Notes under the pieces: model-generated
The model's database searches: none
Told to the model about the DNA's origin: nothing
Seen by the model: the letters and a program-made list of their open reading frames with translations, nothing else
From: an uncultured beta proteobacterium
Lineage (GTDB): Bacteria > Pseudomonadota > Gammaproteobacteria > Burkholderiales > Burkholderiaceae_C
Assembly: GCA_903873485.1 (NCBI GenBank)
Contig: CAIQOO010000032.1
Span: forward strand, 1 to 64,000
DNA length: 64,000 nucleotides
Direction of reading: 5' to 3'
Program-made: the position numbers and the translations under genes
Part shown: positions 33,757 through 61,486 of the stretch, one piece after another
Numbering within the stretch: position 1 is the first letter of the stretch
Layout: each line of letters opens with the position of its first letter

Positions 33757-34594
33757 TTGGGCGTGTCCAAAGGGCCAGGCCGAAGTGGCTATCGGTGACC
33801 GGCGAAAAGTTCAAACGGGCATCCAGGCTCAGGCTGGCGAAATCCCACACGGCATCTGCCGACCTGGAAAAGTCGGGCTGCCGGCTTGAAAAATTCGGCG
33901 AAAAAACCAGGGCTTTTGCCAGTGCAGTATCGACACCCGCCAACATCACCTCGTTATCGAGCAAGTCTGGCAACCGAACCTGCCAATCGGCACCGACACG
34001 CACATGGCGCAGCCATCGCCACTGCCCATGCTCAATCAGTCCGAGACAGAGTCGCCCTTCTTCATGCAAAACCAGCCAGCTTGAAAAACCCCGATGGAAA
34101 CGCTTGCGCCAGTGGTTTACTGCGGCGGCAAAATAAGGCTGAATCGAGTCGATGCGAGTCTTGTTGGCCGCAGCGCCGTGTGCCAGGGCGGCCAGCAGGT
34201 CGGCATCCACAGCGGCGGCCACTTTTGGAATGCCGGGAGCTGCGTCACTCAGCTCTACCTGCCAGCCGGTTGCCAAGTCGCCATAGGTTTGGCTAAAGGC
34301 CAGGCGGGCGAGCGCAAGTTCTTCCTGCGCGTCATTCACGTCATCGCGCCAGGGCAGCAACTGACACGGCGTGAAATGGCTGGAAAGAACCACCCGCACC
34401 CGCTTACAAGAAGAGAACTCAGCCAGCAGATCACCAAAGGCGTGAGCCGCCCCGGCCCAGACGCTGCCCGGCAGGGGGGCCACCGGCCAAATGCGTTTTG
34501 CGGCAATTTGCGGACGAAAACCGCGCCATAGCACCGCCACCAGTTCGGTGGGGGAAACGAAAACACCCAGTGATTCAGGCGACAAAAGTGACAC
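33743..34594 (-). CDS. PilM-like actin-fold protein
   Basis: 283 residues from a GTG overlapping the ATPase gene by 20 bases. It begins LGVFVSPTELVAVLWRG and contains RVRVVLSSHFTPCQLLPW and a later FSSWLVLHEEGRLCLGLIEHG beta region, in line with a degenerate PilM/GspL cytoplasmic domain. The assignment rests partly on position between the ATPase and PilN-like genes. Confidence 0.68.
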   Translation of the reverse strand: MSLLSPESLGVFVSPTELVAVLWRGFRPQIAAKRIWPVAPLPGSVWAGAAHAFGDLLAEFSSCKRVRVVLSSHFTPCQLLPWRDDVNDAQEELALARLAFSQTYGDLATGWQVELSDAAPGIPKVAAAVDADLLAALAHGAAANKTRIDSIQPYFAAAVNHWRKRFHRGFSSWLVLHEEGRLCLGLIEHGQWRWLRHVRVGADWQVRLPDLLDNEVMLAGVDTALAKALVFSPNFSSRQPDFSRSADAVWDFASLSLDARLNFSPVTDSHFGLALWTRPNAAH

Positions 34595-36254: not shown

Positions 36255-37441
36255 TGGATGCTCCCGGCCAGCTCGAAAATCGGGAAATACATCATCACCA
36301 CAATGGCCCCGATGACGATGCCGATAAAGGCCATCAACAGCGGTTCAAACAAGCGCACAAACCAGTCCACCCAACGCGCAATTTCGGCATCGTAATAGGC
36401 GGCAATCCGCTCCATCATCTCGCCCATGTGCCCGGTACGTTCGCCCACCCGCAGCATGCGCAATGACACCGGTGTGGTCAACCCAAAAGACGCCATGGCG
36501 GAGGAAATTTGTACGCCTTCGCGGATTTGATTGGCCGAGGCAGACAAGCGATCACGCAGCGGACCCTGCAACAGGTCTGCCGTCATCTGCAATGAAGGCA
36601 TGATCGACATGCCGCCGCGCAACAGCATGCCCAGCGTGCGATAAAACCTTGCCAACTGGTACCAGCGGATGCGTTCGCCAATGGCAGGAAGTGCGGCCAG
36701 ATGCTGGTAAATCCAGTATCTCGTCCCAGGACGGCGCAGCCAGAAAATCGCACCGGTTGTGACTGCCGTGATACCGATCAACAGGCTCCAGCCATGATCG
36801 TGAACCAGCAGGCCCCAATTGATCAGCAAACGCGAGCTAAAAGGAAGATCGCCACCGAGGTCTTCAAAGATGCGCGAGAAGCGCGGAACCACATAGCCCA
36901 TCAAAAAAACAATGACCAGACCGCCGACACCGGCCAGCAGCATCGGGTAGATGGCGGCGCTGATGATTTTTTTCCGCACGACATCAAGTTGCGCTTGATA
37001 AGCCACATATCTGGCCAGTGCCTCGGGCAGGTCACCGGTTTTTTCGCTGGCGCGCACGGTGGCGATGTAGAGCGGCGGAAAAACGGCGGGGAAATGTTGC
37101 AACGCCTGCGACAGCGATTGGCCCTCAAAGAGAGAGGCCACCAGTTGCGCCAATAAATGCTGGTGGCGTGCCTTGTTTTCTTTTTCCTTGAGGGTTTCAA
37201 TCGAATCGACGACCGACAGGCCGGCTTCGAGCAGCATCAGCAGTTCCTGACTGAACAACCCCAGGGGAAAGGTGCGCGTGTCGGAGGTCGCCAGGTTGGC
37301 GAGCGTGCGGGTCAGCTTGACTTTAAGAATGGCATAACCCTGCAGGCGTGCCTGCTCGGCTGCATCATCGGCGCTGGTGGCCTCCAGCAGCAGGGTCGAA
37401 ACCGGTGTACCTGGGCGCAGAACGCGCAACTCAAAACGCAT
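36251..37441 (-). CDS. GspF/PilC-type inner-membrane platform protein
   Basis: 396 residues. Two T2SSF repeats, each ending in membrane segments: FSQELLMLLEAGLSVVDSIETL ... IISAAIYPMLLAGVGGLVIVFLMGYVVP in the first, and LARFYRTLGMLLRGGMSIMPSLQ ... LFEPLLMAFIGIVIGAIVVMMYFPIF in the second. The N-terminal domain (1-60) is of the GspF type. The stop overlaps the ATPase start. Confidence 0.92.
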   Translation of the reverse strand: MRFELRVLRPGTPVSTLLLEATSADDAAEQARLQGYAILKVKLTRTLANLATSDTRTFPLGLFSQELLMLLEAGLSVVDSIETLKEKENKARHQHLLAQLVASLFEGQSLSQALQHFPAVFPPLYIATVRASEKTGDLPEALARYVAYQAQLDVVRKKIISAAIYPMLLAGVGGLVIVFLMGYVVPRFSRIFEDLGGDLPFSSRLLINWGLLVHDHGWSLLIGITAVTTGAIFWLRRPGTRYWIYQHLAALPAIGERIRWYQLARFYRTLGMLLRGGMSIMPSLQMTADLLQGPLRDRLSASANQIREGVQISSAMASFGLTTPVSLRMLRVGERTGHMGEMMERIAAYYDAEIARWVDWFVRLFEPLLMAFIGIVIGAIVVMMYFPIFELAGSIQ

Positions 37442-41643: not shown

Positions 41644-42777
41644 TCAGGTATTTTTCAGGCCAGTGGTGTCGATCCGCCCATAGTTGTAATGCGCAGCGCA
41701 GGCACCTTCGGTGGACACCATCAGCGAACCCAGGGGCATCTCGGGCGTGCATGTGGTGCCGAACACTTTGCATTGATGCGGCTTGATCACTCCCTTCAGC
41801 ACCTCGCCGCACTGGCAGTCCTTTGGGTCGGCAATGGTGAGGTTGGGCACCGAAAACCTGCGTTCTGCGTCAAATTCGGCATAAGCCGCGCGAACCCGCA
41901 CCCCGGAGTGTTCGATTGAGCCGAGTCCGCGCCACTCGAAAAATTCTCTTGGCTCGAACACCTGATCAATGGCTGCCAGGGCTTTGAGGTTGCCGTCGCG
42001 GGGCACGATGCGGCCATACTGGTTTTCGACTTCGGCGCGGCCTTCGGCAATCTGCTTGAGAACCATCCACAGCGAATGCAACACGTCCAGTGGCTCAAAG
42101 CCGGCAATGGTGATCGGCTTGCCATACTCGCTGGCAATGAACTCGTAAGGACGGGTGCCGATGACCATGCTGACATGGCCGGGGCCGAGAAAGCCGTCCA
42201 GGTGCAAATCGGGCGAGTCGAGAATGGCCTTGATGGTCGGAATGATGGTGATGTGGTTGCAAAACAGCGAGAAGTTGGTGATACCTTGTTTTTTGGCTTG
42301 CAGCACGGTCATGGCGGTGCTGGGCATGGTGGTTTCAAACCCCAGGCCGAAAAAAACCACTTCGCGCTCCGGATTGTCTTTGGCCAGTTTCAAGGCATCC
42401 AGCGGCGAATAAACCATGCGCACGTCGGCCCCGTCGGCTTTGGCTTTGAGCAGGCTTTTTTTCGAGCCTGGCACGCGCATGGCATCGCCGAAGGTGGTGA
42501 AAATGACCTGGGGAAGCTCTGCCAGCGCCACGCAGTCATCAACCCGGCCCATCGGCAGCACGCAGACCGGGCAACCCGGCCCATGAACAAATTCGACCTC
42601 GTCGGGCAGAAATTGCGTCATGCCGTAGCGAAAGATCGAATGGGTGTGGCCACCGCACACCTCCATGATCTGCAACGGCCGCTGCTTCGCCCGTGCAATG
42701 CCAGCCACCACGCTGCGGATTTCCCGGGCCAGCATCTGTGCCTTTTCCGGGTCGCGGAATTCATCAACGAATTTCAT
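41644..42777 (-). CDS. hypD: Hydrogenase maturation protein HypD
   Basis: 377 residues. Conserved motifs: MEVCGGHTHSIFRYG, VHGPGCPVCVLP, FFGLGFETTMPSTA, FLGPGHVSMVIG and the C-terminal [4Fe-4S] cysteines in CQCGEVLKG ... CKVFGTTCTPEMPLGSLMVSTEGACAAHYNYGR. It is the scaffold, with HypC, on which the Fe(CN)2CO group is built. Confidence 0.96.
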   Translation of the reverse strand: MKFVDEFRDPEKAQMLAREIRSVVAGIARAKQRPLQIMEVCGGHTHSIFRYGMTQFLPDEVEFVHGPGCPVCVLPMGRVDDCVALAELPQVIFTTFGDAMRVPGSKKSLLKAKADGADVRMVYSPLDALKLAKDNPEREVVFFGLGFETTMPSTAMTVLQAKKQGITNFSLFCNHITIIPTIKAILDSPDLHLDGFLGPGHVSMVIGTRPYEFIASEYGKPITIAGFEPLDVLHSLWMVLKQIAEGRAEVENQYGRIVPRDGNLKALAAIDQVFEPREFFEWRGLGSIEHSGVRVRAAYAEFDAERRFSVPNLTIADPKDCQCGEVLKGVIKPHQCKVFGTTCTPEMPLGSLMVSTEGACAAHYNYGRIDTTGLKNT

Positions 42778-43097: not shown

Positions 43098-45563
43098 TTA
43101 ACTGGCAATGGCTCTTGCCGCTGCCACCACCGCCTGCCCCAAGGCCAGCCCGCCATCGTTGGCAGCCACCTGGCGATGCGTCAGCACTCTGAAGCCGGAA
43201 TTTTCCAGTCGCATCACCACCTGCTCCAGCAATATCCGGTTCTGAAACACACCGCCCGACAAGGCGACGGTGTTGACTGCCGGACGACCATTTTCAGGCT
43301 GGCTCAACACCTCGATCATACGGACAATGACCCGCGCCAATCCCTTGTGGAAACGCGCGGCGATCAGCCCGGTCGGGGTGCCTTGCTGCAGGTCGTCCAG
43401 CAGCGCTTGCCACATGGGCCGTGGCTCGATATATGCCGGTGCGCTGGCTGGCCGGTGTTCAATTGCAAATGGGTACGCCAGCGCGTTGTCTTCGTCTTGC
43501 AGGGCGCGTTGATCGACCAGCGCCTCAAATTCCACTGCCGCCTGGCCTTCGTAATTGACCCGCTCGCAGCAGATGCCCGCTGCCGCCGCAACGGCATCAA
43601 ACAGTCTGCCGCAGGAACTGGCAAGCGGGCTGTTGACTCCCTTGGCCATCATGCCGTCAAGCATTGCTCGCGGCTTGCCGTCAAGAAAATGATAAAGATC
43701 GAGCTTTTGATAGTTGCTGGCGAAACTGGCCCAGCCCATGGCCGCCATCAGGTGCGCGTAGGTATTGCGCCAAGGTTCATACACCGCCTGCTCGCCACCG
43801 AGAAGGGCCACTGGCAAAAAGCTGCCCAGCCGCTGGCACTGCCGGTAGTCGGCCAGCAAAAACTCGCCACCCCAGAGCGTGCCGTCCGCGCCATAACCCA
43901 GACCATCAAGTGCGACACCGATCACCGGCCCATTGTCCAGGTCGATGCCGTTTTCTGCCATGCAGGCCGCGATGTGGGCGTGGTGGTGCTGCACCTCTTC
44001 GCAGACCAGCGCCTGCTGCCCGGCCATCTGCCGGCCCAGCTTGCCCGACAGGTATTCGGGATGCTGATCGACCGCGATGATGCGCGCGCCGTGTTGAAAC
44101 AGTTGTTGATAGCTCTTGATCGACTGCAAGTAATCGGCATGGCAGCGGGCATCTTCCAGATCGCCGATATGGTGCGACAGGATGGCCTGACCATCACGCA
44201 GCAGGCAAAAGCTGTTTTTCAGTTCGCCGCCCATTGCCAGCACCGGCGGCGCAGCGACAAAACCTTCTGCCAGGCGGATGGGTGCCGGTGCATATCCACG
44301 CGCCCGGCGCATCAGGCGTGGCGCACCGGCCATCACGCGCACGACGGAGTCATCGACACGGCGCGCAATGCCACGGTCATGCATCAGGAAATAGTCGGCG
44401 ATACCGCACAGACGCTCTCGGGCATCCGCGTTGTCAATGCACTGTGGTTCGTCACTGAGATTGCCACTGGTCAAGACCATCGGTCGTTCCATCCGCTGCA
44501 TCAGCAGATGGTGCAGCGGCGTGTTGGGCAGCATGAAACCCAGGCTGGTCATGCCCGGTGCCACCGATGCCGCCACCCGCGCCGTATCGTTGCTGTCGCT
44601 GATGTTGCTGATGTTGCTGATGTTGCTGATGTCGCAGATGTCCAGGATGACGATCGGTGCGGCGGGGCTTTGCAGCAAGGCGGCGGCCTCCGCGCCAACG
44701 CGGCAATAGCGCCGCACCACATCGAGGTCACGCGCCATCAAGGCCAGGGGTTTTCGCTCGCGCCGCTTGCGTTGGCGCAAACGCGCCACCGCCGCCTCAT
44801 CACCGGCATCACAGGCAAGTTGAAACCCGCCCAGCCCCTTGATGGCAACGATGTGGCCCTGCAGCAGCAGGGTGCAGGCGGCATCCAGTGCATCCAGTGC
44901 ATTGAGCGCCGCCAGTTCAACCCGGCTCCCATCGGCTTGTTCCAGCCAGACGTGCGGGCCGCAAGCCGGGCAGGCGACCGGCTGGGCGTGGAAACGGCGG
45001 TCAGCGGGGTCGGCGTATTCGGCAGCACATTGCGGGCAAAGCGGAAACGTCCGCATGGTGGTGGTGGCACGGTCGTAGGGGATGGCATCAATGATCGACA
45101 GGCGCGGGCCGCAGTGGGTGCAATTGGTAAAGGGATAGCGAAAACGCCGCGCCAGCGGGTCAAAAATTTCAGCCAGACAGGCCGGGCAGGTGGCGGCATC
45201 GGGCACGATGCCGGTGTGAACGCTGCCGGCGTGGCTGGCGACGATGCAAAAATCGTCTTGTTCCGGCCTGAGCGTGGTGGCTTCCCGCACAATCGCCTCG
45301 ATGCGGGCAAGCGGCGGTGCCTGGCCCGGCAAGGCTGCGACAAAGGCATCCCGTGCCGCCGCCGGGCCACAAGCCAACAGGGTGACACCCTGGCCGTCGT
45401 TGCAGACCCAGCCACGCAGGCCAACGCTTTGGGCCAGCCGCCACACCATCGGCCGAAAGCCGACCCCCTGCACCATGCCGCGCACGCGGATCAACTCGGC
45501 GACATCCGGCTCAGCCACTGAATTTGTTGCCCGCAATGGCATCGTCAGCAGGTCGTCGCACAT
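43098..45563 (-). CDS. hypF: Carbamoyltransferase HypF
   Basis: 821 residues. Acylphosphatase domain (RVRGMVQGVGFRPMVWRLA), two zinc fingers (CPACLAEIFDP ... CTHCGPR and CPQCAAEYADP ... CPACGP), a YrdC-like domain (about 200-385) and a Kae1-like domain with HHHAHIAACMAENG and GLGYGADGTLWGGE. It makes the carbamoyl precursor of the cyanide ligands. A 9-bp tandem repeat at 44590-44643 encodes repeated Ile-Ser-Asn in the YrdC part and keeps the frame. Confidence 0.96.
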   Translation of the reverse strand: MCDDLLTMPLRATNSVAEPDVAELIRVRGMVQGVGFRPMVWRLAQSVGLRGWVCNDGQGVTLLACGPAAARDAFVAALPGQAPPLARIEAIVREATTLRPEQDDFCIVASHAGSVHTGIVPDAATCPACLAEIFDPLARRFRYPFTNCTHCGPRLSIIDAIPYDRATTTMRTFPLCPQCAAEYADPADRRFHAQPVACPACGPHVWLEQADGSRVELAALNALDALDAACTLLLQGHIVAIKGLGGFQLACDAGDEAAVARLRQRKRRERKPLALMARDLDVVRRYCRVGAEAAALLQSPAAPIVILDICDISNISNISNISDSNDTARVAASVAPGMTSLGFMLPNTPLHHLLMQRMERPMVLTSGNLSDEPQCIDNADARERLCGIADYFLMHDRGIARRVDDSVVRVMAGAPRLMRRARGYAPAPIRLAEGFVAAPPVLAMGGELKNSFCLLRDGQAILSHHIGDLEDARCHADYLQSIKSYQQLFQHGARIIAVDQHPEYLSGKLGRQMAGQQALVCEEVQHHHAHIAACMAENGIDLDNGPVIGVALDGLGYGADGTLWGGEFLLADYRQCQRLGSFLPVALLGGEQAVYEPWRNTYAHLMAAMGWASFASNYQKLDLYHFLDGKPRAMLDGMMAKGVNSPLASSCGRLFDAVAAAAGICCERVNYEGQAAVEFEALVDQRALQDEDNALAYPFAIEHRPASAPAYIEPRPMWQALLDDLQQGTPTGLIAARFHKGLARVIVRMIEVLSQPENGRPAVNTVALSGGVFQNRILLEQVVMRLENSGFRVLTHRQVAANDGGLALGQAVVAAARAIAS
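44590..44643 (-). repeat. 9-bp tandem repeat inside hypF
   Basis: The unit TTGCTGATG recurs about three times exactly, with decayed units on both sides (plus strand). It encodes ISN ISN ISN. Change in unit number keeps the hypF frame. Confidence 0.85.
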
Positions 45564-45568
45564 CTCAG

Positions 45569-46195
45569 TCAGCGAGCCGCAGTCGCTGAGTCTGGCGCGC
45601 CGGGGCTGGCCTGTGTGGCTGAGCCTGACTCGTAAGCCTCCATATCAAGGCTTTCCGGCAACAAATACTCAATTGTTTCGAGCTGACCATCGCGTGCTTG
45701 CGGCTCACAGCCCCAGCGCCGCAGGCGGTCCAGCGCGATGTCAATCGCCGGCTGGATTTGCGCCTTGACAACGGGACGAATGGAGCCGCCAAAATCATCG
45801 AGTTGTTCGGGTTGAACCCCAATCAGCACCAGCTCGACCGGCAAGTGCCCGGTCAGCTCGGCCACCCCCAGCACTTCCTGAAAACCGGTCTGATGCAGGC
45901 TGAGTTTTTTGGAACCCATGAAGCGCGGCACCTGCTCATTGGACAGCACCTTGAGGGTTCCGGGCGGCAGGCCGTAGTCGATGGCATCGAAAATGACCAT
46001 GCGCATGGCGGCCTGCACATGGGTCAACAGGTTAAAGCCCTGGGTGCCGCCATCCATCAGCGTGACCCGGCTGGCAAAACGCCATTGGCGGTGCAGCGCC
46101 TGTACCGCCCGCACGCCAAAGCCTTCGTCGGCCCACAGCAGGTTGCCGATACCGAGTACCAGGATGCTCTCATTGCTGTCTGTCAGATTTGTCAT
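45569..46195 (-). CDS. hyaD: [NiFe] hydrogenase maturation protease (HyaD/HybD family)
   Basis: 208 residues from MTNLTDSNESILVLGIGN, chosen for the AGGAAAAAAATAAC upstream; the ORF is open to 46291. Nickel-sensing residues of the family are present: Glu in LLWADEGFGV, Asp in IFDAIDYG and His in SLHQTGFQEV. It trims the large subunit after the His of NPCMACAVH once nickel is in place. The C-terminal 45 residues exceed the usual length. Confidence 0.92.
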   Translation of the reverse strand: MTNLTDSNESILVLGIGNLLWADEGFGVRAVQALHRQWRFASRVTLMDGGTQGFNLLTHVQAAMRMVIFDAIDYGLPPGTLKVLSNEQVPRFMGSKKLSLHQTGFQEVLGVAELTGHLPVELVLIGVQPEQLDDFGGSIRPVVKAQIQPAIDIALDRLRRWGCEPQARDGQLETIEYLLPESLDMEAYESGSATQASPGAPDSATAAR

Positions 46196-46257
46196 GTTAT
46201 TTTTTTCCTGATACATAGCTGTCGTGCTGTTTTTAGCGCTCAACATCAATTGCTTAA

Positions 46258-46311
46258 ATTTTGAATCTAAATAGGCTCCAGCCCCCGTCATTACTGCGTA
46301 GCTAGCTATAT
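46258..46311 (-). repeat. Dispersed intergenic repeat, copy 9
   Basis: On the minus strand it reads TATAGCTAGCTACGCAGTAA, then TGACGGGGGCTGGAGCCTATTTAG. It lies in the 216-base gap between the small secreted-protein gene and hyaD. Confidence 0.65.
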
Positions 46312-46411: not shown

Positions 46412-46777
46412 TCAACGCAGACACTTCGCGCTAGCCGAGCCGTAGGGCGGGCACTTTAGCAGCAGATCTTCTTTGCCGCTCGCCGGGTTGCGGACATACT
46501 GCGCCAGCATGGCTTGCTGCTGCGCCGCTGTCATGGGCATGGCCGCTGGCAGCGCTGCGGCATCCGACCAAAACCCCACCATGCAGGGTTTGGCGGGTGC
46601 ACAGACGGTTGTCGCGATTTTTTTGAGCTGATCCAGGTTGTCTGCGATGGCCGCATCGAGCAGCACCAGGTGTCGCTGACCAAGGGAGCCAACATGCTTC
46701 CATTGGGACTCAGCGAGCGCCCCGGAGCAAGCCAGAATCGTTGTCGAGACCACCAAAATTGCCAGTTTAGTTTTCAT
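46412..46777 (-). CDS. Small secreted protein in the hydrogenase operon, unknown
   Basis: 121 residues from MKTKLAILVVSTTILACSGALAES (signal peptide, or lipoprotein by the ILAC box). The mature part has four Cys (TTVCAPAKPC ... KCPPYGSASAKC), probably two disulphides, and ends KCLR. No family recognised. It overlaps the end of the PKD/haem gene by 11 bases, so it is coupled to it, and it lies between hydrogenase structural and maturation genes. Confidence 0.7.
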   Translation of the reverse strand: MKTKLAILVVSTTILACSGALAESQWKHVGSLGQRHLVLLDAAIADNLDQLKKIATTVCAPAKPCMVGFWSDAAALPAAMPMTAAQQQAMLAQYVRNPASGKEDLLLKCPPYGSASAKCLR

Positions 46778-48068
46778 TTTTAGAACGCCTTTCCGTAGTC
46801 GATTTGACATCCTCATCGTCTTCCTCATCGTCGTCTTCATCATGATGGTCGTCATCGCTGTCGCCAATTGAACACTGACCAACTAGCGGCGCTGTCTGAT
46901 TCGGTTTTGCCACGGTGACGACTCTCGAAGCCGCTTGTGACTGGTTCCCCTTGCTGTCCGTCAGGGTCAGGGTGGCGGTGAAAACCCCTGCATTGGCATA
47001 GCTGATCGAGCCTGGATTTTGCACCTTGGAACTCGATGGGCTGGCACCTGGGAAGCGCCAGTTGTAGCTCAGCGGCAGGTTGGCACTCGCTTCGGCTGAT
47101 CCCTTGAAGTTGACCTTGCCGCCTGGCAAGAGCGAGACGTTGATGGTCGGGGTGTCGATGACTGCGACCGGCTTTTGGCCGGTGACCGCGACCGTAATGG
47201 TTCGCGTGACGGTGGTCGAGGCCAGACCCAGACTGTCCGTGACCGTCAGGCTTGCCGTATAGCTGCCCGCCGTTTTATAGGTCACCAGGCCCGGACTCGA
47301 TGCCGTGGAACTCGACGGGCTGCCGCCGGGGAAGCTCCAGTTGTAAGTCAGAGGCGTGGTGCTGTCAGGGTCAGTGCCCGAACCCTGGAAGTTCACCGTC
47401 GCACCGGGAGCAATCGCAGTGTTGGCTGCTGCTGGTGCGCTGATGCTGGCGGTAGGTGCCTGGTTTCCGGTCGGAGTACCAGTTACGGTCACTGCCCGTG
47501 TAGGTGCCACACCGGTAGCAGGCATGCCCACTGAATTGAGCACCGTCAAGGTTGCTGTGACAGGCCCGGCGATGCTCATCGGTACGGCAACGCTTAGGGT
47601 CGGAGCCGTGGTAGTGGGCTGACCGTTGGAAAACGCCCAACTGGAAGTCAGCGGAAAGCCGTCAGGATTGGTAGCAGCCGCAGCAGTGAAGGTCAAGGAC
47701 TGGCCCAGTGCCACGCTGGCCCCCGCTGCGGGTGCCGTGATGCTGGCATTGCTGGGTGCCGTGGCGATGCAAAACGGATTGACGGTTGCGCCGCAGGTCG
47801 TTCCGGTGCAGGTTTTGCTGGCCGTTCCCAGGGTGTTCAGGTCAGTTTTCGCGGGGCGGCTAGAGGTATGGCAGAGCGCGCAGGAATTGCCTGACGCAAG
47901 GTAGGGTTTGCTTTGCTGCGGTGCAACTGACTGGATGGGCTGCGTGGCACAGAAGGTGTTAAGCCGGGTGGCAAAGGTGGCCGTGGCCCAGGCACTGCTG
48001 CTGACCGCACACAGCACAGCAAACCATAGCGTCCACAGCAGACGCAAAGAGGCTGACATCTTGTTCAT
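46767..48068 (-). CDS. Secreted PKD-repeat protein with one c-type haem motif
   Basis: 433 residues. Signal peptide about 1-30 (LLWTLWFAVLCAVSSSAWATA). CALCH at 63-67 is a covalent haem c motif, with further Cys at about 40, 87, 92 and 100. Three PKD-like domains follow (about 108-200, 208-300 and 304-390; the second and third have YNWSFPGGSPSSS / YNWRFPGASPSSS). The tail at about 405-425 is almost all Asp, Glu and His (DSDDDHHDEDDDEEDDEDV) and could bind metal. It occupies the position where a hydrogenase operon normally encodes the cytochrome b electron acceptor. An electron-transfer or assembly role is my inference. Confidence 0.8.
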   Translation of the reverse strand: MNKMSASLRLLWTLWFAVLCAVSSSAWATATFATRLNTFCATQPIQSVAPQQSKPYLASGNSCALCHTSSRPAKTDLNTLGTASKTCTGTTCGATVNPFCIATAPSNASITAPAAGASVALGQSLTFTAAAATNPDGFPLTSSWAFSNGQPTTTAPTLSVAVPMSIAGPVTATLTVLNSVGMPATGVAPTRAVTVTGTPTGNQAPTASISAPAAANTAIAPGATVNFQGSGTDPDSTTPLTYNWSFPGGSPSSSTASSPGLVTYKTAGSYTASLTVTDSLGLASTTVTRTITVAVTGQKPVAVIDTPTINVSLLPGGKVNFKGSAEASANLPLSYNWRFPGASPSSSKVQNPGSISYANAGVFTATLTLTDSKGNQSQAASRVVTVAKPNQTAPLVGQCSIGDSDDDHHDEDDDEEDDEDVKSTTERRSKNEN

Positions 48069-48101
48069 AATGATTCCTTGGGTATCGGTGGAACAGGTGG
48101 C

Positions 48102-49859
48102 TCAGGCGCGAACCGTGACCTTGAGGGTCTCGTTCTGCTCTGGGTCCATGATGTGTACCGCGCAAGCCATGCAGGGGTTAAAGCTGTGAATGGTGCGCAG
48201 CAGCTCCAGCGGCTGGTTGGGCACCGCCAGGGTATGCTTGAGCAGCGCCATTTCATAAGGGCCGCCATGACCGTCGGAGTCGCGCGGTGCCGCGTTCCAG
48301 GTGGTCGGAACAATACACTGGTAATTGGAAATTTTGGCGGCATTGATATTCACCCAATGCCCCAGCGCCCCGCGTGGCGCTTCGCTGAAACCAACCCCCT
48401 TTGAACTGGTCGCCCAGGTTGACGGCTCAAACTTGGCGGCATTGTGGGTGCGGAAATCGCCACCGGCCACATTGGCAGTGAGCTGGTTGAACCACACCTG
48501 AAGCTGATCCGCCACCACCTGGGTGTCAATCGACTGGGCCAGGATGCGGCCCATGGTCGAGTACATGGCACTGAACGGCAGATTCAGGTCTTTCAGTGCG
48601 CTGTCAACATGATCGCGCACAGCCGCCGTGCGCTTGGCGTACATGACCAAAACCCGTGACAGCGGCCCGACTTCCATGTGGTGGCCCTTCCATTGCGGTG
48701 TCTTCATCCACGAATAGGGCTTCTTGGCATCAAGATTCTGGTAGGCCGCCTTGGGGCCGGTGTAGTCTGGCGTGGTTTCACCCTGGAACGGGTGCAGGCC
48801 GGCGTTCTTGCCCTTGGTGTAACCCAGCCAGCTATGCGGGATCAGTTCTTGCACCTCGTTGGTGTTGCGCAGATCGACCGGCAGAATCTCGGAGATTTTG
48901 CGGTTCAGGATGGCACCCCGGGGCACAAACAGGTTCTTGGCCAGATCGGCGTTGTCGTCTTGCGGGTATTCGCCGAAGGTGAGGAAATTGCCCACGCCTT
49001 CGCCGCGCGTGAACCAGTCTTTGTAGTGGCTTGCCAGGGCCAGCACGTCCGGCCGCAACACCTGGTTGACAAAGTCGCGCATGTCGGTGATGCAGGATTG
49101 AACCAGATCAAGCCCGGCCTGATCGATGCCGGTGCTGCCCGGTGCCGGCACCAAAATGCCAGCCGCGTTGGGGGCCATGTGAAATGAACAGGGCACGCCG
49201 CCAATAGCGAAATTGGGGTGCGGATTGCGGCCACCAAAGATGGCTTGCATGCGCAACACCTTGCGCTGCCATTCCAGCGCTTCAAGCCAGTGGGCAAACA
49301 GCATCAGGTTCATTTCCGGCGGCAGCTTGTAACCGGGGTTGTCCCAATAGCCGTTGCTGAACAGGCCAAGCTGACCGGTGGCGATAAATTTGCCGAGTTT
49401 TTGTTTCACCGACTCGAAATAGGCGGGCGAGTTGTTGGCCCACTTTGAATGGCACTTTTGCAAGTCGGAGGTGGCCGTGGCGCTGGCCTGGCTGGCCGAC
49501 ACCACATTGAGCCAGTCCATCGAGGTGAGCTGGTAGAAATGCGTCACCTGATCCTGCACCAGTTGCGAGCCCATCAGCAGGTTGCGGATGTGGCGCGCAT
49601 TGGTCGGGACGGTAATGCCGAGGGCATCCTCGACCGCCCGCACCGAGGTCAGCGCATGCACCACGGTACACACGCCGCAGATGCGCTGGGTAAACGCCCA
49701 AGCCTCGCGGGGATCGCGGCCCTTGAGAATAATTTCAATGCCGCGCATCATGGTGCCGCTGCTTAAAGCGCTGGTGACAACACCGGAACTGTTGGTCTCG
49801 GCCTCGATGCGCAGATGGCCTTCAATACGGGTAACGGGATCAATAACAATGGTACTCAT
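48102..49859 (-). CDS. [NiFe] hydrogenase large subunit
   Basis: 585 residues. L1 motif RICGVC (Cys61, Cys64) and L2 motif NPCMACAVH (Cys563, Cys566), the four Ni-Fe ligands; N-terminal DPVTRIEGHLRIE. The residue before the Pro in L2 is Asn561, where DPC is usual. After His569 a 16-residue tail (IMDPEQNETLKVTVRA) is the peptide removed by the HyaD-type protease. Exported with the small subunit by the Tat route. Group 1 uptake type by overall features; the subgroup cannot be fixed without an alignment. Confidence 0.95.
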   Translation of the reverse strand: MSTIVIDPVTRIEGHLRIEAETNSSGVVTSALSSGTMMRGIEIILKGRDPREAWAFTQRICGVCTVVHALTSVRAVEDALGITVPTNARHIRNLLMGSQLVQDQVTHFYQLTSMDWLNVVSASQASATATSDLQKCHSKWANNSPAYFESVKQKLGKFIATGQLGLFSNGYWDNPGYKLPPEMNLMLFAHWLEALEWQRKVLRMQAIFGGRNPHPNFAIGGVPCSFHMAPNAAGILVPAPGSTGIDQAGLDLVQSCITDMRDFVNQVLRPDVLALASHYKDWFTRGEGVGNFLTFGEYPQDDNADLAKNLFVPRGAILNRKISEILPVDLRNTNEVQELIPHSWLGYTKGKNAGLHPFQGETTPDYTGPKAAYQNLDAKKPYSWMKTPQWKGHHMEVGPLSRVLVMYAKRTAAVRDHVDSALKDLNLPFSAMYSTMGRILAQSIDTQVVADQLQVWFNQLTANVAGGDFRTHNAAKFEPSTWATSSKGVGFSEAPRGALGHWVNINAAKISNYQCIVPTTWNAAPRDSDGHGGPYEMALLKHTLAVPNQPLELLRTIHSFNPCMACAVHIMDPEQNETLKVTVRA

Positions 49860-49885
49860 GCTGGTAACTCCTTATTCTTACTTTG

Positions 49886-50920
49886 TTAAATCACTGGCAG
49901 CGCAGGTAAACCAGGTATCGCACAGGTGCCGCTGCCGGTCGCAAATCCTGCACCAATTCCGTAGATGCCACCTTCCTTGTCCCAAAAGTTGGGTTCAGAG
50001 CAGCCGATGCAGCCGTGGCCGGCCTGGGTTGGCGAACTGGTGCCCTGGTTCCACTTGGTGGTAGCACAGGCGTTGAAGGTTTCAGGGCCCTTGCAGCCGA
50101 GCATCAGCAGGCAATGACCCTGGCGGGCACCCTCATCATCAAAGGAGGCGGCAAACTCGCCAGCGTTGTAATGATCGAGCCGTGGGCAGCAGTCATGCAC
50201 CGTTTTACCGAAGAACACCAGCGGTCGGCCCAGCGCATCCAGCGGCGGGGCTGCCTGGTTGACCAGGTAATAGGCAATGGTGCCGGTAATCACTTCGGGG
50301 ATGGGCGGGCAGCCGGAGATATTGATCAGCGGCTTTCTGCCAATCAGCCCTTTGTCCATCAGCTCGCCGACACCCATCGCCTTGGACGGGTTGGGAAAGG
50401 CCGCCGGAATGCCGCCGTAAGTGGCGCAGGCACCCAGGGCCAGCACCAGACCGGCTCCGGCAATGGCTTCGTGCAGGATGCTCAGGCCAGACTGGCCGGC
50501 CACCGCCAGCCACCATTCGTTCTCGGCGGTCGGCAGCGAACCATCAACGATCAGGATGTAATTGCCAAAATTTTCCTTCATGGCCGCCAACCGGGCCTCT
50601 TCGGCCTGCGCGCCGGCAGCCACCTGAAGCGTTTCGTGGTAGTCGAGCGAGATGAAGTTGAGAATCAGGTTTTCCACCGTCAGCCGGTCGGTCAATGGAC
50701 TGCCTGAACGCATCAGCGATTCCGAACATCCGGTGCAATGCTGGAACGACATCCAGATCACCGAGGGGCGGCGCGCCGCGCCCAGCGCCTGGGCAAAGGC
50801 CGTGACCCCGGTGGCTGCAATCCCCAGCGAGGAGGCGGTGACGCTACAGAATTTAATGAAGCTGCGACGCGATACGCCTTGTTGTTGCAGCGAATCAAAC
50901 ACGGTGGATGGCATTTTCAT
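49886..50920 (-). CDS. [NiFe] hydrogenase small subunit
   Basis: 344 residues from MKMPSTVFDSLQ (GAGGTATCCACC upstream). Tat signal SRRSFIKFC, then a hydrophobic region to about 47. Cluster ligands: HCTGCSES (proximal), GACATYGG, SGCPPIP, then HDCCPRLDHY, CLLMLGCKGPETFNAC and HGCIGCSEPNFWD for the medial and distal clusters. It has CTGC and no extra Cys at the GACATYGG site, so it lacks the six-Cys proximal cluster of O2-tolerant enzymes. It ends AIPGLPALPVI without the C-terminal membrane helix of HyaA/HupS, so the enzyme is predicted to be soluble in the periplasm. Confidence 0.95.
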   Translation of the reverse strand: MKMPSTVFDSLQQQGVSRRSFIKFCSVTASSLGIAATGVTAFAQALGAARRPSVIWMSFQHCTGCSESLMRSGSPLTDRLTVENLILNFISLDYHETLQVAAGAQAEEARLAAMKENFGNYILIVDGSLPTAENEWWLAVAGQSGLSILHEAIAGAGLVLALGACATYGGIPAAFPNPSKAMGVGELMDKGLIGRKPLINISGCPPIPEVITGTIAYYLVNQAAPPLDALGRPLVFFGKTVHDCCPRLDHYNAGEFAASFDDEGARQGHCLLMLGCKGPETFNACATTKWNQGTSSPTQAGHGCIGCSEPNFWDKEGGIYGIGAGFATGSGTCAIPGLPALPVI

Positions 50921-50960
50921 GGTGGATACCTCTCTGTTGGTGTGGATGAGTTTTCGGGGT

Positions 50961-51467
50961 TCAGTTGATGCCATGCAGCGCGCTGGCGTTTAACACCTTC
51001 AGACAATGGGCAACCGCCTGCCGGTCGCTTACCAGAATCTCGGGGATGTCGGTAATCTCGATCAGTTCGCCGACCATTTCGGCTTCGCTGTTGAAGTGGC
51101 GAATCAGCCAGACGCAGGCAATGGCGGTTTCCTGAACCTGGCTGCGGCCAATCGAATTGACCTCGGCAGACACTTCACCGCGGCCCAGCAAAGCAGTCAG
51201 TGCGGCACGCTCGTCGGGCATGGACTGCAAAAAGCGCAGGTCAATCGAATGGGTGATGCCCTGCTCAGCCAGGCGCAGGGCGCTGGTTTTGACTTCGGAA
51301 AAAATCGCCATGGCGGTAGAACCCGGCTCGGCATTAACGGCTTGTACAGGTTTGACAGCTTGCATCCAGACAATCGGATGGGTTTGACGCAGCAGCCTGC
51401 CATGAACGCCGGTTGTGCCAGGCACAGCCAGTGCTGCTGTGCCAGAGGTGTTTGGTATGCAATTCAT
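50961..51467 (-). CDS. HupH/HyaF-like hydrogenase expression protein
   Basis: 168 residues. The C-terminal ~115 residues match the HupH C-terminal domain (TALLGRGEVSAEVNSIGRSQVQETAIACVWLIRH and GELIEITDIPEILVSDRQAV). HyaF/HupH act in assembly of the small-subunit iron-sulphur clusters. It is shorter than HyaF or HupH and lacks their N-terminal domain; the first ~50 residues look low in structure. First gene of the hydrogenase operon, about 200 bases from the sigma-54 promoter. The start is uncertain; M52 (MAIFSEVK) is an alternative. Confidence 0.85.
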   Translation of the reverse strand: MNCIPNTSGTAALAVPGTTGVHGRLLRQTHPIVWMQAVKPVQAVNAEPGSTAMAIFSEVKTSALRLAEQGITHSIDLRFLQSMPDERAALTALLGRGEVSAEVNSIGRSQVQETAIACVWLIRHFNSEAEMVGELIEITDIPEILVSDRQAVAHCLKVLNASALHGIN

Positions 51468-51699: not shown

Positions 51700-51871
51700 G
51701 GGCGAAAAAGCCTAGATTCTGCCCAGCTTCAAGCGTTTACCCGTGCAAAAAATAGCGGTCACCCGATCAATGTGATTCGCAAATAAACAGCCAGCCAGCC
51801 GCCTTTTGCCACCTTTGGTGCTGCTATCCTCAGCCCAACAATGACACCGATTGCGCTGTCTGGAGAACCTC

Positions 51872-52366
51872 ATGGAACGTATCACCATTTCAATTGACAC
51901 TGCGCTGGCGCTCGAATTTGACCAACTGATTGCCGTGCGTGGCTACAAAAATCGCTCGGAAGCGGTACGCGACCTGGTGCGCTCGCATCTGGAGGCCGAG
52001 CGTTTGGCGCACCGTCCGGGAGGACATTGCGTGGCCAATCTGTCGTATGTCTATAACCACCACGAACGCGATTTGGCCGAGCGCCTGACCGCCTTGCAGC
52101 ATGACCAGCACGACCTGACGGTGGCCACCCTGCACGCCCATCTGGACCATGACAATTGTCTGGAGAGCGTCATTTTGCGCGGCACCACCACGGCGGTGCG
52201 GACGTTTTCAGATGCCCTGATGGCCCAGCGCGGCGTGCGCCATGGGCAGCTCAATGTGGTGGCAGTGGAGATCGGTGCAGACCATACACACACGCACCAG
52301 CATCCGCATGTGCATGGCCAGGACGAGCCCGCGCACACGCATATTCACCTCAAGCCCAAGACCTGA
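51872..52366 (+). CDS. nikR: Nickel-responsive regulator NikR
   Basis: 164 residues from MERITISIDTALALEFDQL (GGAGAACCTC upstream). Ribbon-helix-helix domain 1-45 (YKNRSEAVRDLVRSHLE). ACT-like nickel domain with the ligand set HHERDL, HAHLDHDNCLESVILRG (His, His, Cys). The C-terminal tail is His-rich (HTHTHQHPHVHGQDEPAHTHIH), longer than in E. coli NikR. It represses nickel uptake when nickel is plentiful. Divergent from the hydrogenase operon and convergent, one base apart, with the nickel transporter genes. Confidence 0.94.
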   Translation: MERITISIDTALALEFDQLIAVRGYKNRSEAVRDLVRSHLEAERLAHRPGGHCVANLSYVYNHHERDLAERLTALQHDQHDLTVATLHAHLDHDNCLESVILRGTTTAVRTFSDALMAQRGVRHGQLNVVAVEIGADHTHTHQHPHVHGQDEPAHTHIHLKPKT

Positions 52367-57120: not shown

Positions 57121-57367
57121 TCGAAGTTTCCTTTCAACAGCGCAAAGACGAAGCGCCTTCAAAACAGCCGTGGTGACGGATGGCCACCCCTGCGATTGCA
57201 CCAGTGAATGACACGGCTTGGCAACAGCGAACAAACCGTTACAAAAATAATTGCCATTTTTGAGTCGGCAGGCATTCATCTTCATCTGAACTTAATCAAG
57301 CCAGATTTCAATAGCCCCAAGCGCTTGAATGCCCACTTTTTACAAATGCAACTTTTCAGGAAATTTT

Positions 57368-60300
57368 ATGGCCAACAACATCACCGCAAACAACAGCTCG
57401 CAGACCCTCATCAACGCACTGCTGGCATCCGCCTCCGGCATCACCATCACCAGCAGCAGTTTGACCAGTGCGCCGGGTTCGGCCAATTTGTATGACGGCG
57501 GATTGCAGGGCATTGGTGCTGGCATTTTGTTGACCAGCGGTACCACGCCAGGCACGGTCAATGACTCCACCGGCTTCGGCATTGACAACGGTCTGGCAGG
57601 CAGTGCGGCGCTGGACGCTGTGGTCAACACCGTATTTCAAACCCAGTCGTTCAATGCCACCAGCCTCACTTTTTCGTTTACGGTGGCAGACCTCACCGCC
57701 ACATCGGTCAGCTTTGACCTGGTGTTCGGGTCAGAAGAGTACCCGGAGTGGGTGGATTCGTTTGTGGACGTTGCGGTGGTCATGGTGAATGGCAGCAATG
57801 TTGCCTTGTTCAACCACGACCCCAATCACCCCTTGAGCGTCATCAGCCCCAACTTGGCAGCGGGCTATTTTGTCGACAATGCGAATGGTGCCTTGCCCAC
57901 CCAGTACGACGGTGTGAGTTCCTTGCTCAAGTTTGTGGCACCGATTCATGCCGGTGTCAATACCATCACCATCGCCATCGCCGATACCGGTGACGGCATT
58001 CTTGACAGCGGCGTTTTTGTTTCCAACCTGTCCGCTGGTACCACCCCCGGTTCTGGCGTGGTCAGTGCGCCAAACACTGGTACCAGCGGCAATGACACCC
58101 TGACGGGTACCGTCAAGGCTGAATACTTTGACTTGCAAGCTGGCAACGATACGGTCTATGCCGGTGCCGGCGATGACATCGTGGTAGCCGGTGCTGGCAA
58201 CGATGCCGTCTATGGCGGCAGTGGTGCGGACGCCATTGAGGGTGACGCCGGCGATGACCTGATTGATGGCGGAGCCGACAGTGACACGGCGGTGTATGCC
58301 GGTGGAAAAGCCGATTACGACATCAGCTTTGATGGCATCACGGGTAATTACACGGTGACGGCCAAAGCTGCTGGCGCGTCGGCCATCGACGGCCAGGATA
58401 CGCTGGTGGGCGTCGAGTTTGCCAAATTTGGCGACGGCACGACCTGGTCACTGGACACCACGGGTGTGGTGAGCCAGACTGGCACCGCAGTGGTCGTGCC
58501 CGTTGGCAACCTGCCCGGCTCGGTGTTTCTCAGCGGCGTGGGTGCCCAGGGGCAAACCCTGACCGCCAAGGTGTCTGATGCTGATGGTGTGCTTGCAACG
58601 GGCATCAGCTACGCCTGGCAAGCCACTGATAAGAACCTGGTTGTCACCGACCTGGGTATCACCGGCAGCACCTTTGTGGTGGGTGCGGCGCAAGTTGGTC
58701 AAGACATCACGGTCACGGCTCAATATACCGACCTGGCAGGCCATGCCGAGTCACTGACCAGTGCAGCCAAGGCGATTGCCGCGCCAGGCAACGGCGACTT
58801 TGCCATTACCTTGCTGCAACTGAAAGCACCGATTGGCGCAAGCGTCTCGAACCCCTTGACCACGCTGGTGCAAAACGCGATTGAGCTGGGTGTATCCCCC
58901 AACGAGGCTGGCATCATCATCAAGAGTGCGCTTGGCATTGCACCCACGGTCAACCTGCAACACTATGACTCCTGGGCCGCTTTGCAAGCCGATCCGGTCG
59001 ATGCAGCCGCCCTGGCGGTTGAAAAGAAGCTGGTGCAAGTCGCCGTGATGACTTCGCTGGGCAGCGATGAAACCGGCATGGCCCTGACGCAGGCTATTTT
59101 GCTGGCCGACAGCAATAACGCCACACTGAATCTGACCAATAAAGCGGTGATAGCGAATCTGCTAGGGCTGGATCCGACAAACGCGCTGGTGCATGAGATC
59201 TGGGATCGCAATGACACCATAGGTGCTGCCGCAGACACCGCAGAAATCGACTCCATTTGGCTCGATATGCAGAGCGGACTAAGCGTCAATCTGTCAGACA
59301 GCATTGGCACCTTGAGTGTCCACATCAACCAGGCACCCATCGGCTCAGCCAATGCCACCTTGGCCAGTGGCAACGAAGGCATCGCCTATGTGGTGAGCGC
59401 CAGTGATTTGCTCGCAGGTTTTACCGACCCCGAAGGTAGCGTGTTGCACGTTGCCAATTTGGCGGCAGACCACGGTAGCGTGATGGCTGGTGCCGGCAAC
59501 TTCACCATCACCCCCACTGCGGGTTACAGCGGTCCAATCGAACTGACTTACAGCGTGGCCGATGACCTGGGCCTGACGGCTCCTGCCACGCAATTATTTG
59601 TTGTAACCCCCAATGCAGTGACACCGCCCCCGGTCAACCAAGCCCCCGCAGGCAGCGCCACTGCCGTGCTGGTGGCAGGCAGCGAAGACACCGCCTATAC
59701 CGTGGCCGCCGCCGACCTGCTGGCTGGCTTTACCGATGCGAATGGCGACACTTTGTCGGTGGCCAACCTCGGTGCAGATCATGGCGCGGTGACTGACAAC
59801 GGCGACGGCACGTTCACCATCACGCCCGATGCAGATTATTTCGGCCCGGTCAATCTGAGCTACAACGTGACCGACGGCAACGGCGGCAGCACGGCGGCTA
59901 CGCAAAGCTTCAACGTCTCAGCCGTCAACGACGCGCCAGCGCTGACCGGTACCGCAGCCACTTTGGCCACAGGCACCGAAGACACCGCTTACGCCATTGC
60001 TGCGGCTGACCTGCTGGCAGGCTTTACCGATATCGATGGTGATACGCTAAGCGTGAACAACCTGACCGCCAGCAACGGCACTTTGACTGCCAACGGCACC
60101 GACTGGACCTTCACCCCGAACGCCAACTACAACGGCGCAGTGGCACTAAGCTACAACGTCACCGACGGCAACGGCGGCAGCACGGCGGCCACGCAAAGCT
60201 TCAGCCTTGCAGCCGTCAACGACGCACCGACTGGCAGTGCCACGGCTGCGCTGGTTACAGGCACCGAAGACACGCCTTACACCATCGCAGAAGCCGACCT

Positions 60301-61486
60301 GCTCTCAGGCTTCTCGGATGTCGAAGGTGACGCACTGTCGGTAACCAACCTGACCGCCAATCACGGTGCGCTGACCAATAACGGCAACGGCACCTGGACG
60401 TTCACACCTGCCGCTAACTACGCTGGTGCGGTCACTTTGGGCTACGAGGTAAGCGATGGCACTTCAAGCGTGACGGCCACCCAGAGCTTTAACCTGACAG
60501 CAGTCAATGATGCGCCGCTGGCCGTAGCCGACAGCGCCAGCACAACCGCACTGACACCGGTGTTAATCAATGTGTTGGCCAACGACTCGGACGTGGACAG
60601 CGCGAGTTTGTCCATCAAGGCGGGTAACCTGGTGTTTGATCCGCTGCACGGCACAGCCCAGATCGTTGGCAATCAGATCGAATTCACTTCGGCGAACGGT
60701 TTCACCGGCGTGGCAACGCTAAGCTATGTGGCAACCGACGGGCTGGCTAACAGCGCGGCGGCCAACGTGTCGATCACGGTCAACCCGGCTGCCACGCCGC
60801 CCATCCCTGGCGTGATTCTGGGCACTGCGGGCAATGACAATCTGGTGGGTACCAATGGCAACGACTGGCTGGATGGCGGTGCCGGTGCAGACACCTTGGC
60901 TGGCGGGCTTGGGGACGATACCTATGTGGTGGATAACAAGAGCGACAAAGTGATTGACTTTTCGGGGCAAGGGATCGACACCGTGCGGTCTGGCGTTGAT
61001 TTTGAACTTGGCAAAAACACCGAAAATCTGATCCTGACTGGTTTGGGTGACCTGAACGGTAAAGGCAATGATCTGGCCAACGTGCTGATCGGCAATGCCG
61101 GCAAGAACGAATTCGACGGCGGCAAGGGCAACGACATCCTGATCGGCGGCGGCGGCAAAGACAAGCTTGTGGGCGGTGCTGGCGCGGACATCTTCAAGTT
61201 CCTCAACATCACGGACAGCGTGGTGGGATCCAAACGCGACACCATTGAAGATTTCAAGGTCGGCGTGGATCGAATCGACCTGAGCGCCATTGATGCCGTG
61301 ACAGGCACTGCGGCTAACGAGGCCTTCGTATTGATTTCGACCAACTTTACCCATGAGACCGGTCAGTTGCGGTTTGACACGGCCAAAGGCATTCTTGCAG
61401 GCGATGTCAACGGTGATGGTTTGGCCGACTTCGAGATTGCTTTGGCCGGTGTGAGTCAACTCAGCTTGAATGATTTGATGCTGTGA
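57368..61486 (+). CDS. Large secreted RTX protein with choice-of-anchor-L and cadherin-like repeats
   Basis: 1372 residues from MANNITANNSSQTLINAL (CAGGAAATTTT upstream). About 31-231: choice-of-anchor-L domain (LTSGTTPGTVNDSTGFG, FDLVFGSEEYPEWVDSFVDV). About 239-311: RTX Ca2+ nonapeptides (GGSGADAIEGDAGDDLIDGG). About 654-1046: four cadherin-like repeats of ~96-100 residues (NDAP...EDT.Y.IAAADLLAGF). About 1047-1137: a VCBS/Ig-like domain. About 1150-1277: more RTX repeats. The C-terminal ~95 residues form a type I secretion-like tail ending LSLNDLML. No N-terminal signal peptide. It should leave by a type I exporter, not encoded here, and act in adhesion or as an S-layer/biofilm protein. 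Confidence 0.9.
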   Translation: MANNITANNSSQTLINALLASASGITITSSSLTSAPGSANLYDGGLQGIGAGILLTSGTTPGTVNDSTGFGIDNGLAGSAALDAVVNTVFQTQSFNATSLTFSFTVADLTATSVSFDLVFGSEEYPEWVDSFVDVAVVMVNGSNVALFNHDPNHPLSVISPNLAAGYFVDNANGALPTQYDGVSSLLKFVAPIHAGVNTITIAIADTGDGILDSGVFVSNLSAGTTPGSGVVSAPNTGTSGNDTLTGTVKAEYFDLQAGNDTVYAGAGDDIVVAGAGNDAVYGGSGADAIEGDAGDDLIDGGADSDTAVYAGGKADYDISFDGITGNYTVTAKAAGASAIDGQDTLVGVEFAKFGDGTTWSLDTTGVVSQTGTAVVVPVGNLPGSVFLSGVGAQGQTLTAKVSDADGVLATGISYAWQATDKNLVVTDLGITGSTFVVGAAQVGQDITVTAQYTDLAGHAESLTSAAKAIAAPGNGDFAITLLQLKAPIGASVSNPLTTLVQNAIELGVSPNEAGIIIKSALGIAPTVNLQHYDSWAALQADPVDAAALAVEKKLVQVAVMTSLGSDETGMALTQAILLADSNNATLNLTNKAVIANLLGLDPTNALVHEIWDRNDTIGAAADTAEIDSIWLDMQSGLSVNLSDSIGTLSVHINQAPIGSANATLASGNEGIAYVVSASDLLAGFTDPEGSVLHVANLAADHGSVMAGAGNFTITPTAGYSGPIELTYSVADDLGLTAPATQLFVVTPNAVTPPPVNQAPAGSATAVLVAGSEDTAYTVAAADLLAGFTDANGDTLSVANLGADHGAVTDNGDGTFTITPDADYFGPVNLSYNVTDGNGGSTAATQSFNVSAVNDAPALTGTAATLATGTEDTAYAIAAADLLAGFTDIDGDTLSVNNLTASNGTLTANGTDWTFTPNANYNGAVALSYNVTDGNGGSTAATQSFSLAAVNDAPTGSATAALVTGTEDTPYTIAEADLLSGFSDVEGDALSVTNLTANHGALTNNGNGTWTFTPAANYAGAVTLGYEVSDGTSSVTATQSFNLTAVNDAPLAVADSASTTALTPVLINVLANDSDVDSASLSIKAGNLVFDPLHGTAQIVGNQIEFTSANGFTGVATLSYVATDGLANSAAANVSITVNPAATPPIPGVILGTAGNDNLVGTNGNDWLDGGAGADTLAGGLGDDTYVVDNKSDKVIDFSGQGIDTVRSGVDFELGKNTENLILTGLGDLNGKGNDLANVLIGNAGKNEFDGGKGNDILIGGGGKDKLVGGAGADIFKFLNITDSVVGSKRDTIEDFKVGVDRIDLSAIDAVTGTAANEAFVLISTNFTHETGQLRFDTAKGILAGDVNGDGLADFEIALAGVSQLSLNDLML
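59329..60506 (+). repeat. Four ~290-bp tandem repeats in the RTX gene
   Basis: Units start near 59329, 59635, 59928 and 60219. The third and fourth joints share long near-identical stretches (for example GACGGCAACGGCGGCAGCAC at both about 59872 and 60163). This suggests recent duplication or gene conversion, and unit number could vary. Confidence 0.8.

Follow-up and report, generated by a model that had tools for sequence, protein, structure and literature searches.

How do electrons leave a hydrogenase that has lost its usual link to the membrane? As a rule, group 1 uptake hydrogenases pass their electrons to the quinone pool by way of a cytochrome b or of Isp subunits. The question is raised by a [NiFe] hydrogenase cluster of an uncultured beta proteobacterium (Burkholderiaceae_C), found on contig CAIQOO010000032.1 (assembly GCA_903873485.1), of which positions 1-64,000 form the whole stretch analysed here (hereafter the window). 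This cluster occupies 43.1-51.5 kb of the minus strand and encodes, in this order, HupH, the small and large subunits of the enzyme, a secreted protein with a CxxCH motif and PKD domains, a small, disulfide-type secreted protein with four cysteines (Cys), HyaD and HypF, with HypD coming next; open reading frame (ORF) and family searches showed that the genes from HupH to the four-Cys protein fit the interval 46412-51467. The hydrogenase operon is conserved, and in it the secreted pair has replaced the link by which such enzymes usually connect to the membrane.

The Enzyme and Its Missing Membrane Link

The window enzyme has the features of a group 1 [NiFe] hydrogenase, with PF00374, TIGR00391 and TIGR01409 all above cut-off. 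Its large subunit (48102-49859, minus strand) matches PF00374 at E 5.3e-202 and, among the [NiFe] large subunits found in the genome (4.70 Mb in 243 contigs), is the only full-length match to that family. The small subunit (49886-50974, minus strand) was recognized by TIGR00391, PF14720, PF01058 and TIGR01409 as well as by alignments, and its best match in the PDB is 3myr, which we take to be the Allochromatium enzyme. It carries a leader of the twin-arginine translocation (Tat) type (TIGR01409, 18.9 bits against a cut-off of 16.7), the proximal motif CTGC..GG rather than the six-Cys pattern (CTCC, GC) of group 1d, an extra cysteine within the motif HDCC at the distal ligand (C262) and another in its tail (C351). 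This tail runs for 31 residues past the last conserved Trp-Asp; the 19-residue stretch of highest hydrophobicity in it contains three prolines and scores 1.23, against scores of 1.38-2.05 in the longer-tailed small subunits of the helix type (n=43). Because of this score and the prolines we read the small subunit as having no C-terminal membrane helix, in keeping with a preliminary description of the locus. By the same measure the two relatives described below score 0.31 (L053) and 0.14 (L054), and the window value is closer to the helix type.

The preliminary description was also right that no cytochrome b of the HyaC/HupC type is present. None is encoded within the cluster, and of the six PF01292 proteins on other contigs none reaches the cut-off of TIGR02125, the NCBIfam model of hydrogenase cytochrome b (best 71.1 against 121.5, from the protein beside the Mtr genes described below). 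Plain membership of group 1d was rejected on the CTGC..GG motif, the lack of a C-terminal helix and the lack of an adjacent cytochrome b, and plain membership of the Isp type (1e) on the spacing of the structural genes, which are 26 nt apart with nothing between them and hence no Isp1 or Isp2. A second [NiFe] set on contig C100 (L002:370-3232), with a large subunit of 505 aa, a small subunit of 196 aa and a HoxU-like protein, is in our reading a Hox-like hydrogenase; a third, weak large-subunit match on contig C203 is NuoD-like.

A Secreted Gene Pair Kept in Place Beside the Hydrogenase

Starting 33 nt past the large-subunit gene, the CxxCH/PKD gene (46767-48068, minus strand) encodes a protein with a signal peptide, export being judged by eye from the N-terminus, and a single CxxCH (CALCH; C63, C66 and H67) in a short N-terminal domain. 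Three PKD stretches above the Pfam cut-off follow (PF18911 and PF00801), and the last 42 residues include 17 Asp/Glu and two His. The four-Cys gene (46412-46777, minus strand) overlaps it by 11 nt, so that the overlapping pair is as first described. Its product of 121 aa has a signal-like N-terminus with the four cysteines past it; the start is taken as the ATG at 46777, while several searches used 46774, one codon shorter. Neither Pfam nor NCBIfam has a family that matches the four-Cys protein at E 0.1. Its structural model, of moderate confidence (predicted local distance difference test, pLDDT, 76.8), gave no PDB fold match at E <=0.001, and there was no sequence match at E 1. Weakly matching secreted proteins, distant relatives of the four-Cys protein (L006-L019), occur in 14 of 299 family genomes besides that of the window, one of them with an internal stop, and no hydrogenase small subunit was found in their 1.5-kb flanks.

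A scan of a genome-contig collection with the large subunit matched 17 stretches, among which two relatives were confirmed; scans of this kind with one protein find close relatives only and are not a census. The relatives belong to a soil metagenome-assembled genome (MAG; contigs L053 and L142) and to Ideonella sp. A 288 (L054), their large subunits are 83% and 64% identical to that of the window, respectively, and both carry a CxxCH/PKD gene directly past the large subunit. In Ideonella the order is small subunit, large subunit, CxxCH/PKD protein, four-Cys protein, a short gap and HyaD. The MAG contig L053 ends inside the PKD gene, and L142 begins inside PKD repeats (six Pfam stretches), continuing with an Asp tail, a four-Cys gene and HyaD; these two contig ends were compared separately and never joined. 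The four-Cys proteins in this same place are 55% (MAG) and 35% (Ideonella) identical to that of the window. PKD stretches number three in the window, four in Ideonella and two plus six on the MAG ends, and the Ideonella protein adds a MopE-type metal-binding motif. The position between structural and protease genes is kept in all three PKD-type genomes found, which bears out the earlier view that the pair belongs to the hydrogenase locus: the proposed search for the same pair beside [NiFe] hydrogenases elsewhere found it in Ideonella and the MAG, and the lack of association that was to count against that view did not materialize.

A related arrangement is present on plasmid pBBta01 of Bradyrhizobium sp. 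BTAi1. Here the genes for a small subunit without the helix and for a large subunit precede one for a secreted protein of 303 aa with the motif CAMCH, and the N-terminal region of this protein matches the Ideonella N-terminus at E 7e-8. To place these cases against a background, loci were gathered from the best matches (at most 30 per search) in samples of 299 genomes from the family, 398 from the phylum and 369 from the class, together with named records, giving a control set of 105 group 1 large-subunit loci, or 90 distinct places, the window included, once 15 repeated places were removed. Among these 90, a CxxCH frame opens within 25 nt past the large-subunit stop only in the window, the MAG, Ideonella and BTAi1; six other places have one further downstream (L049, L087, L115, L119, L121 and L124). 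Searches with the partner proteins themselves returned little: the four-Cys protein found no relative in the genome-contig collection, the haem-type domain of the window found two weak matches among the 299 family genomes, both with internal stops and read as spurious, and a profile of the four haem domains, run on 329 genomes of the phylum, matched that of the window alone. In the plasmid collection the Ideonella haem domain had no match and the BTAi1 protein matched only itself.

The CxxCH is kept in all four homologues with differing inner residues (AL, SI, AD, AM), and between window and MAG the ratio of nonsynonymous to synonymous substitution rates (dN/dS) is about 0.3 for both genes of the pair and 0.1 for the large subunit. 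Because the motif is kept while its inner residues vary, and because of these dN/dS values, the sequence comparison confirmed the arrangement as more than chance.

Phylogeny and Comparison with Known Systems

In a large-subunit tree of 49 rows, the window, MAG and Ideonella enzymes (the PKD trio) form one branch (support 100/100), which joins G872 (L116) and BTAi1 at 99/99. The 15 rows of the cytochrome-b or 1d-like kind are a separate branch (100/100). Around the branch of five are rows labelled Isp or left unassigned, and the fork between this side of the tree and the 1d-like rows is weak (67/85); of the 20 rows without an assigned type (labelled x), 18 show no small subunit in the 1.5 kb upstream, as expected of Isp loci. 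HDCC at the distal ligand, the His and last Cys of which presumably bind the distal cluster as in known structures, occurs in three of 48 distinct small subunits, which are exactly the PKD trio, the others having HDKC (32), HDRC (11), HDEC (1) or HDDC (1). A tail cysteine is found in five of the 48: the PKD trio, G872 and L112. The G872 small subunit (L116:3334-4371), sister to the trio, is helix-less, with a Gly/Asp/His-rich tail ending in DDDHDHD and no haem gene nearby.

The nearest enzymes in the tree appear to be those of the Isp type (HynS-Isp1-Isp2-HynL), which share the CTGC..GG motif and, at several loci, HupH- and HyaD-like genes; the window differs from them in its 26-nt spacing, its lack of a C-terminal helix and its CxxCH/PKD and four-Cys genes. 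At family loci with longer flanks and 52-54% identity, small and large subunit lie 2.0-2.4 kb apart in seven of eight, as in Isp operons, and at the eighth no small subunit was found. Four of these gaps hold a four-helix ORF that we take from its position to be Isp1, one of the four with a weak PF02665 match. By tree and gene spacing, the preliminary description needs amending in that the partner appears to take the place of the Isp electron-transfer subunits and not of a HyaC/HupC cytochrome b. The likeliest history, as far as tree and gene order can tell, is that the C-terminal helix and the Isp genes were lost and a secreted partner gained. The HynS-Isp1-Isp2-HynL arrangement has been described for Acidithiobacillus ferrooxidans (PMC7735108) and for Thiocapsa (PMC3102683).

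The nearest published helix-less HynSL with cytochrome genes alongside is that of Alteromonas macleodii. This plasmid-borne system resembles the window in its adjacent subunit genes, helix-less small-subunit tail, HupH and HyaD in the operon and c-type cytochrome genes nearby. It differs in that genes for a cytochrome c3-family and a 2Fe-2S protein stand upstream and no CxxCH/PKD gene follows the large subunit, which is 50% identical to that of the window and falls outside its branch; the strain compared here is not the published one (AltDE). BTAi1 shares the branch, the helix-less small subunit and the secreted protein with a related CxxCH region, but the C-terminal part of that protein is Pro-rich and weakly LTXXQ-like (below cut-off) rather than PKD; the BTAi1 small subunit has HDDC and no tail cysteine, and no four-Cys gene stands among its listed features. 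Group 1d enzymes (HyaABC/HoxKGZ) follow the same Tat-exported two-subunit plan with maturation genes, but have CTCC..GC, from which we presume the O2 tolerance of 1d-type enzymes, and a C-terminal helix, with large subunits 45-50% identical to that of the window; the cytochrome b gene was confirmed at the 1d-type loci L065 and L073. In Desulfovibrio, a soluble periplasmic [NiFe] hydrogenase hands its electrons to cytochrome c3, a separate tetrahaem protein. The window enzyme would work alike, but with one haem-type site on a PKD protein encoded in its own operon. A literature search, for which most subscription papers were out of reach, found nothing joining hydrogenase, PKD domain and cytochrome c, and nothing relevant on hydrogenase and PKD domain as judged by titles and the openings of abstracts.

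A Possible Exit for Electrons

We consider there to be an about even chance (roughly 0.5) that the PKD protein carries haem c and serves as electron acceptor at the distal cluster, delivering to periplasmic, outer-membrane or Mtr-type cytochromes. The enzyme would be a Tat-exported group 1 hydrogenase from a small branch related to the Isp (1e-like) enzymes, with its membrane helix and Isp subunits lost and two secreted partners gained. The PKD protein probably binds one haem c covalently in its short N-terminal domain, and the Ig-like PKD stalk would hold this haem at a distance. Electrons from H2 would reach the distal [4Fe-4S] cluster, pass to the haem and go on to cytochromes of the periplasm or outer membrane, for which an Mtr-type conduit is plausible in these hosts. 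C262 beside the distal ligand and C351 in the small-subunit tail mark the likely contact face. Keeping the complex together, or fixing it to the wall or outer membrane, may be the part of the acidic tail and the four-Cys protein.

Contig C61 of the window genome encodes a nine-haem protein, a cytochrome b, two OmcA/MtrC-family decahaem proteins, a DmsE/MtrA-family decahaem protein and MtrB/PioB, of which the OmcA/MtrC, DmsE and MtrB proteins reach NCBIfam cut-offs. MtrB is above cut-off in both relatives, accompanied above cut-off by a DmsE-family protein in the MAG and an OmcA/MtrC-family protein in Ideonella, and MtrB with multihaem cytochromes is encoded in three of three PKD-type genomes. 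MtrB is absent from G872, the helix-less relative without a haem gene, and above cut-off in none of 14 control genomes, where one weak match was seen. In a published survey (PMC8805035), mtrCAB clusters are given for 148 species, Ideonella sp. A288 included, and this strain is said to have been reported depositing iron oxides. The presence of MtrB and multihaem cytochromes in all three genomes is circumstantial and no more than suggestive support for a metal-oxide or extracellular role. A fuller version, in which the soluble enzyme would have left the inner membrane and would sit on its haem-tipped PKD stalk, probably at the outer membrane by the Mtr conduit, as an extracellular electron transfer module that sends H2 electrons to minerals and bypasses the quinone pool, with the extra cysteines locking the enzyme to the haem partner or the four-Cys protein, is tentative, and we think it unlikely.

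Several observations weigh against an electron-accepting PKD protein. The window and BTAi1 proteins have no direct match and are connected only through Ideonella, and the known genomes amount to three of the PKD type and one of the BTAi1 type. The partner proteins are under weaker constraint than the enzyme, as the dN/dS values show. The model of the PKD protein is confident at about residues 105-390, with pLDDT 33-40 in the haem-motif region (22-100) and 38-44 in the acidic tail, and provides neither an axial ligand nor a fold for the haem region. The Mtr genes lie on contigs other than that of the hydrogenase, and a second, Hox-like hydrogenase in the host means that the maturation genes need not serve the window enzyme alone. 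Finally, G872 lies within the branch with a helix-less enzyme, and the 20 kb examined there contain no CxxCH gene, so that loss of the helix does not strictly call for a haem protein.

The strongest competing explanation gives the pair a structural or assembly role. The PKD and four-Cys proteins would mainly help the enzyme to assemble, or anchor or shield it at the wall or outer membrane, the haem being incidental or a sensor and the electrons going straight to diffusible periplasmic cytochromes; we hold this to be possible, if on the unlikely side. The variable number of PKD domains and the MopE-type motif in Ideonella would be natural in a spacer or in something like an adhesin, the pair adjoins the protease gene, and G872 manages without a haem gene. 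In Alteromonas, according to PMC3102683, Orf2 (function unknown) was needed for full activity in Escherichia coli and Cyt was not. Against this rival, what BTAi1 and Ideonella share is the haem-type domain and not the PKD part.

A CxxCH that does not bind haem, in a Cys-rich N-terminus with a disulfide or metal-binding fold instead, appears improbable. Close to the motif the window protein has four more cysteines (C40, C87, C92 and C100) and the MAG protein likewise four, and no known cytochrome family in Pfam or NCBIfam matched the PKD protein. On the other hand, the motif is in an exported protein and is invariant in four of four homologues, and a profile of the haem domain gave eight weak matches in the PDB (E 0.016-0.67), at least six of them named cytochromes, though the CxxCH alone may explain this; the host also encodes many multihaem cytochromes, from which we infer that it must attach haem c. 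Still less probable, in our estimate, is that the pair are passengers, in the operon by history and serving another function. The distant four-Cys relatives in 14 of 299 family genomes, weak matches as they are, do stand away from hydrogenases, but the order and place of the pair are kept in three of three PKD-type loci across enzymes of 83% and 64% identity, and both genes are under purifying selection.

Maturation Genes and Neighboring Loci

The remaining genes of the cluster, all on the minus strand, are those of a hydrogenase operon. The HupH-like expression protein (50961-51467; PF04809 HupH_C, E 1.5e-21) occupies the same spot upstream of the small subunit in both relatives (L053 and L054). 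Downstream of the pair are a HyaD/HybD-type maturation protease (45569-46291, likely start near 46195; TIGR00140, 200.8 bits against a cut-off of 151.8), HypF (43098-45563; TIGR00143 above cut-off) and HypD (41644-42777; PF01924, E 4e-156). A 3'-5' exonuclease gene (PF01612; 40689-41507, minus strand) stands between hypD and hypE, the latter named by reading. Divergent from the cluster is the nickel-responsive regulator NikR (51851-52366, plus strand; PF08753 and NF002815). A short membrane protein containing HPGH is encoded beside the hydrogenase genes of Ideonella (L054:7112-7468; weakly HupE/UreJ-like, below cut-off) and of Alteromonas (L071:13870-14085); none was noticed in the window cluster.

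Next to the hyp genes, at 28418-37441 on the minus strand, is a cluster resembling type II secretion or MSHA systems, with a secretin bearing a cohesin domain, a T2SSE ATPase, a T2SSF protein, a PilN-like protein (just under cut-off) and an N-methylated pilin-like protein; none was seen adjoining the hydrogenase in L053 or L054 within the sequence examined there. An adhesin-like protein of 1385 aa with cadherin-like domains and RTX repeats is encoded at 57329-61486 on the plus strand.

Implications

A branch of group 1 hydrogenases with neither cytochrome b nor Isp subunits, and with a secreted partner bearing a haem motif, would, if the reading proves true, represent a new exit for the electrons of H2. 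With such a branch one could test directly if H2 oxidation in the periplasm can drive electrons to minerals or electrodes, bypassing quinone, in bacteria that possess an Mtr conduit. The combination of HDCC, a helix-less small subunit and a CxxCH/PKD gene may serve as a marker by which further enzymes of this kind can be located, and annotations in which they pass as ordinary hydrogenases put right.

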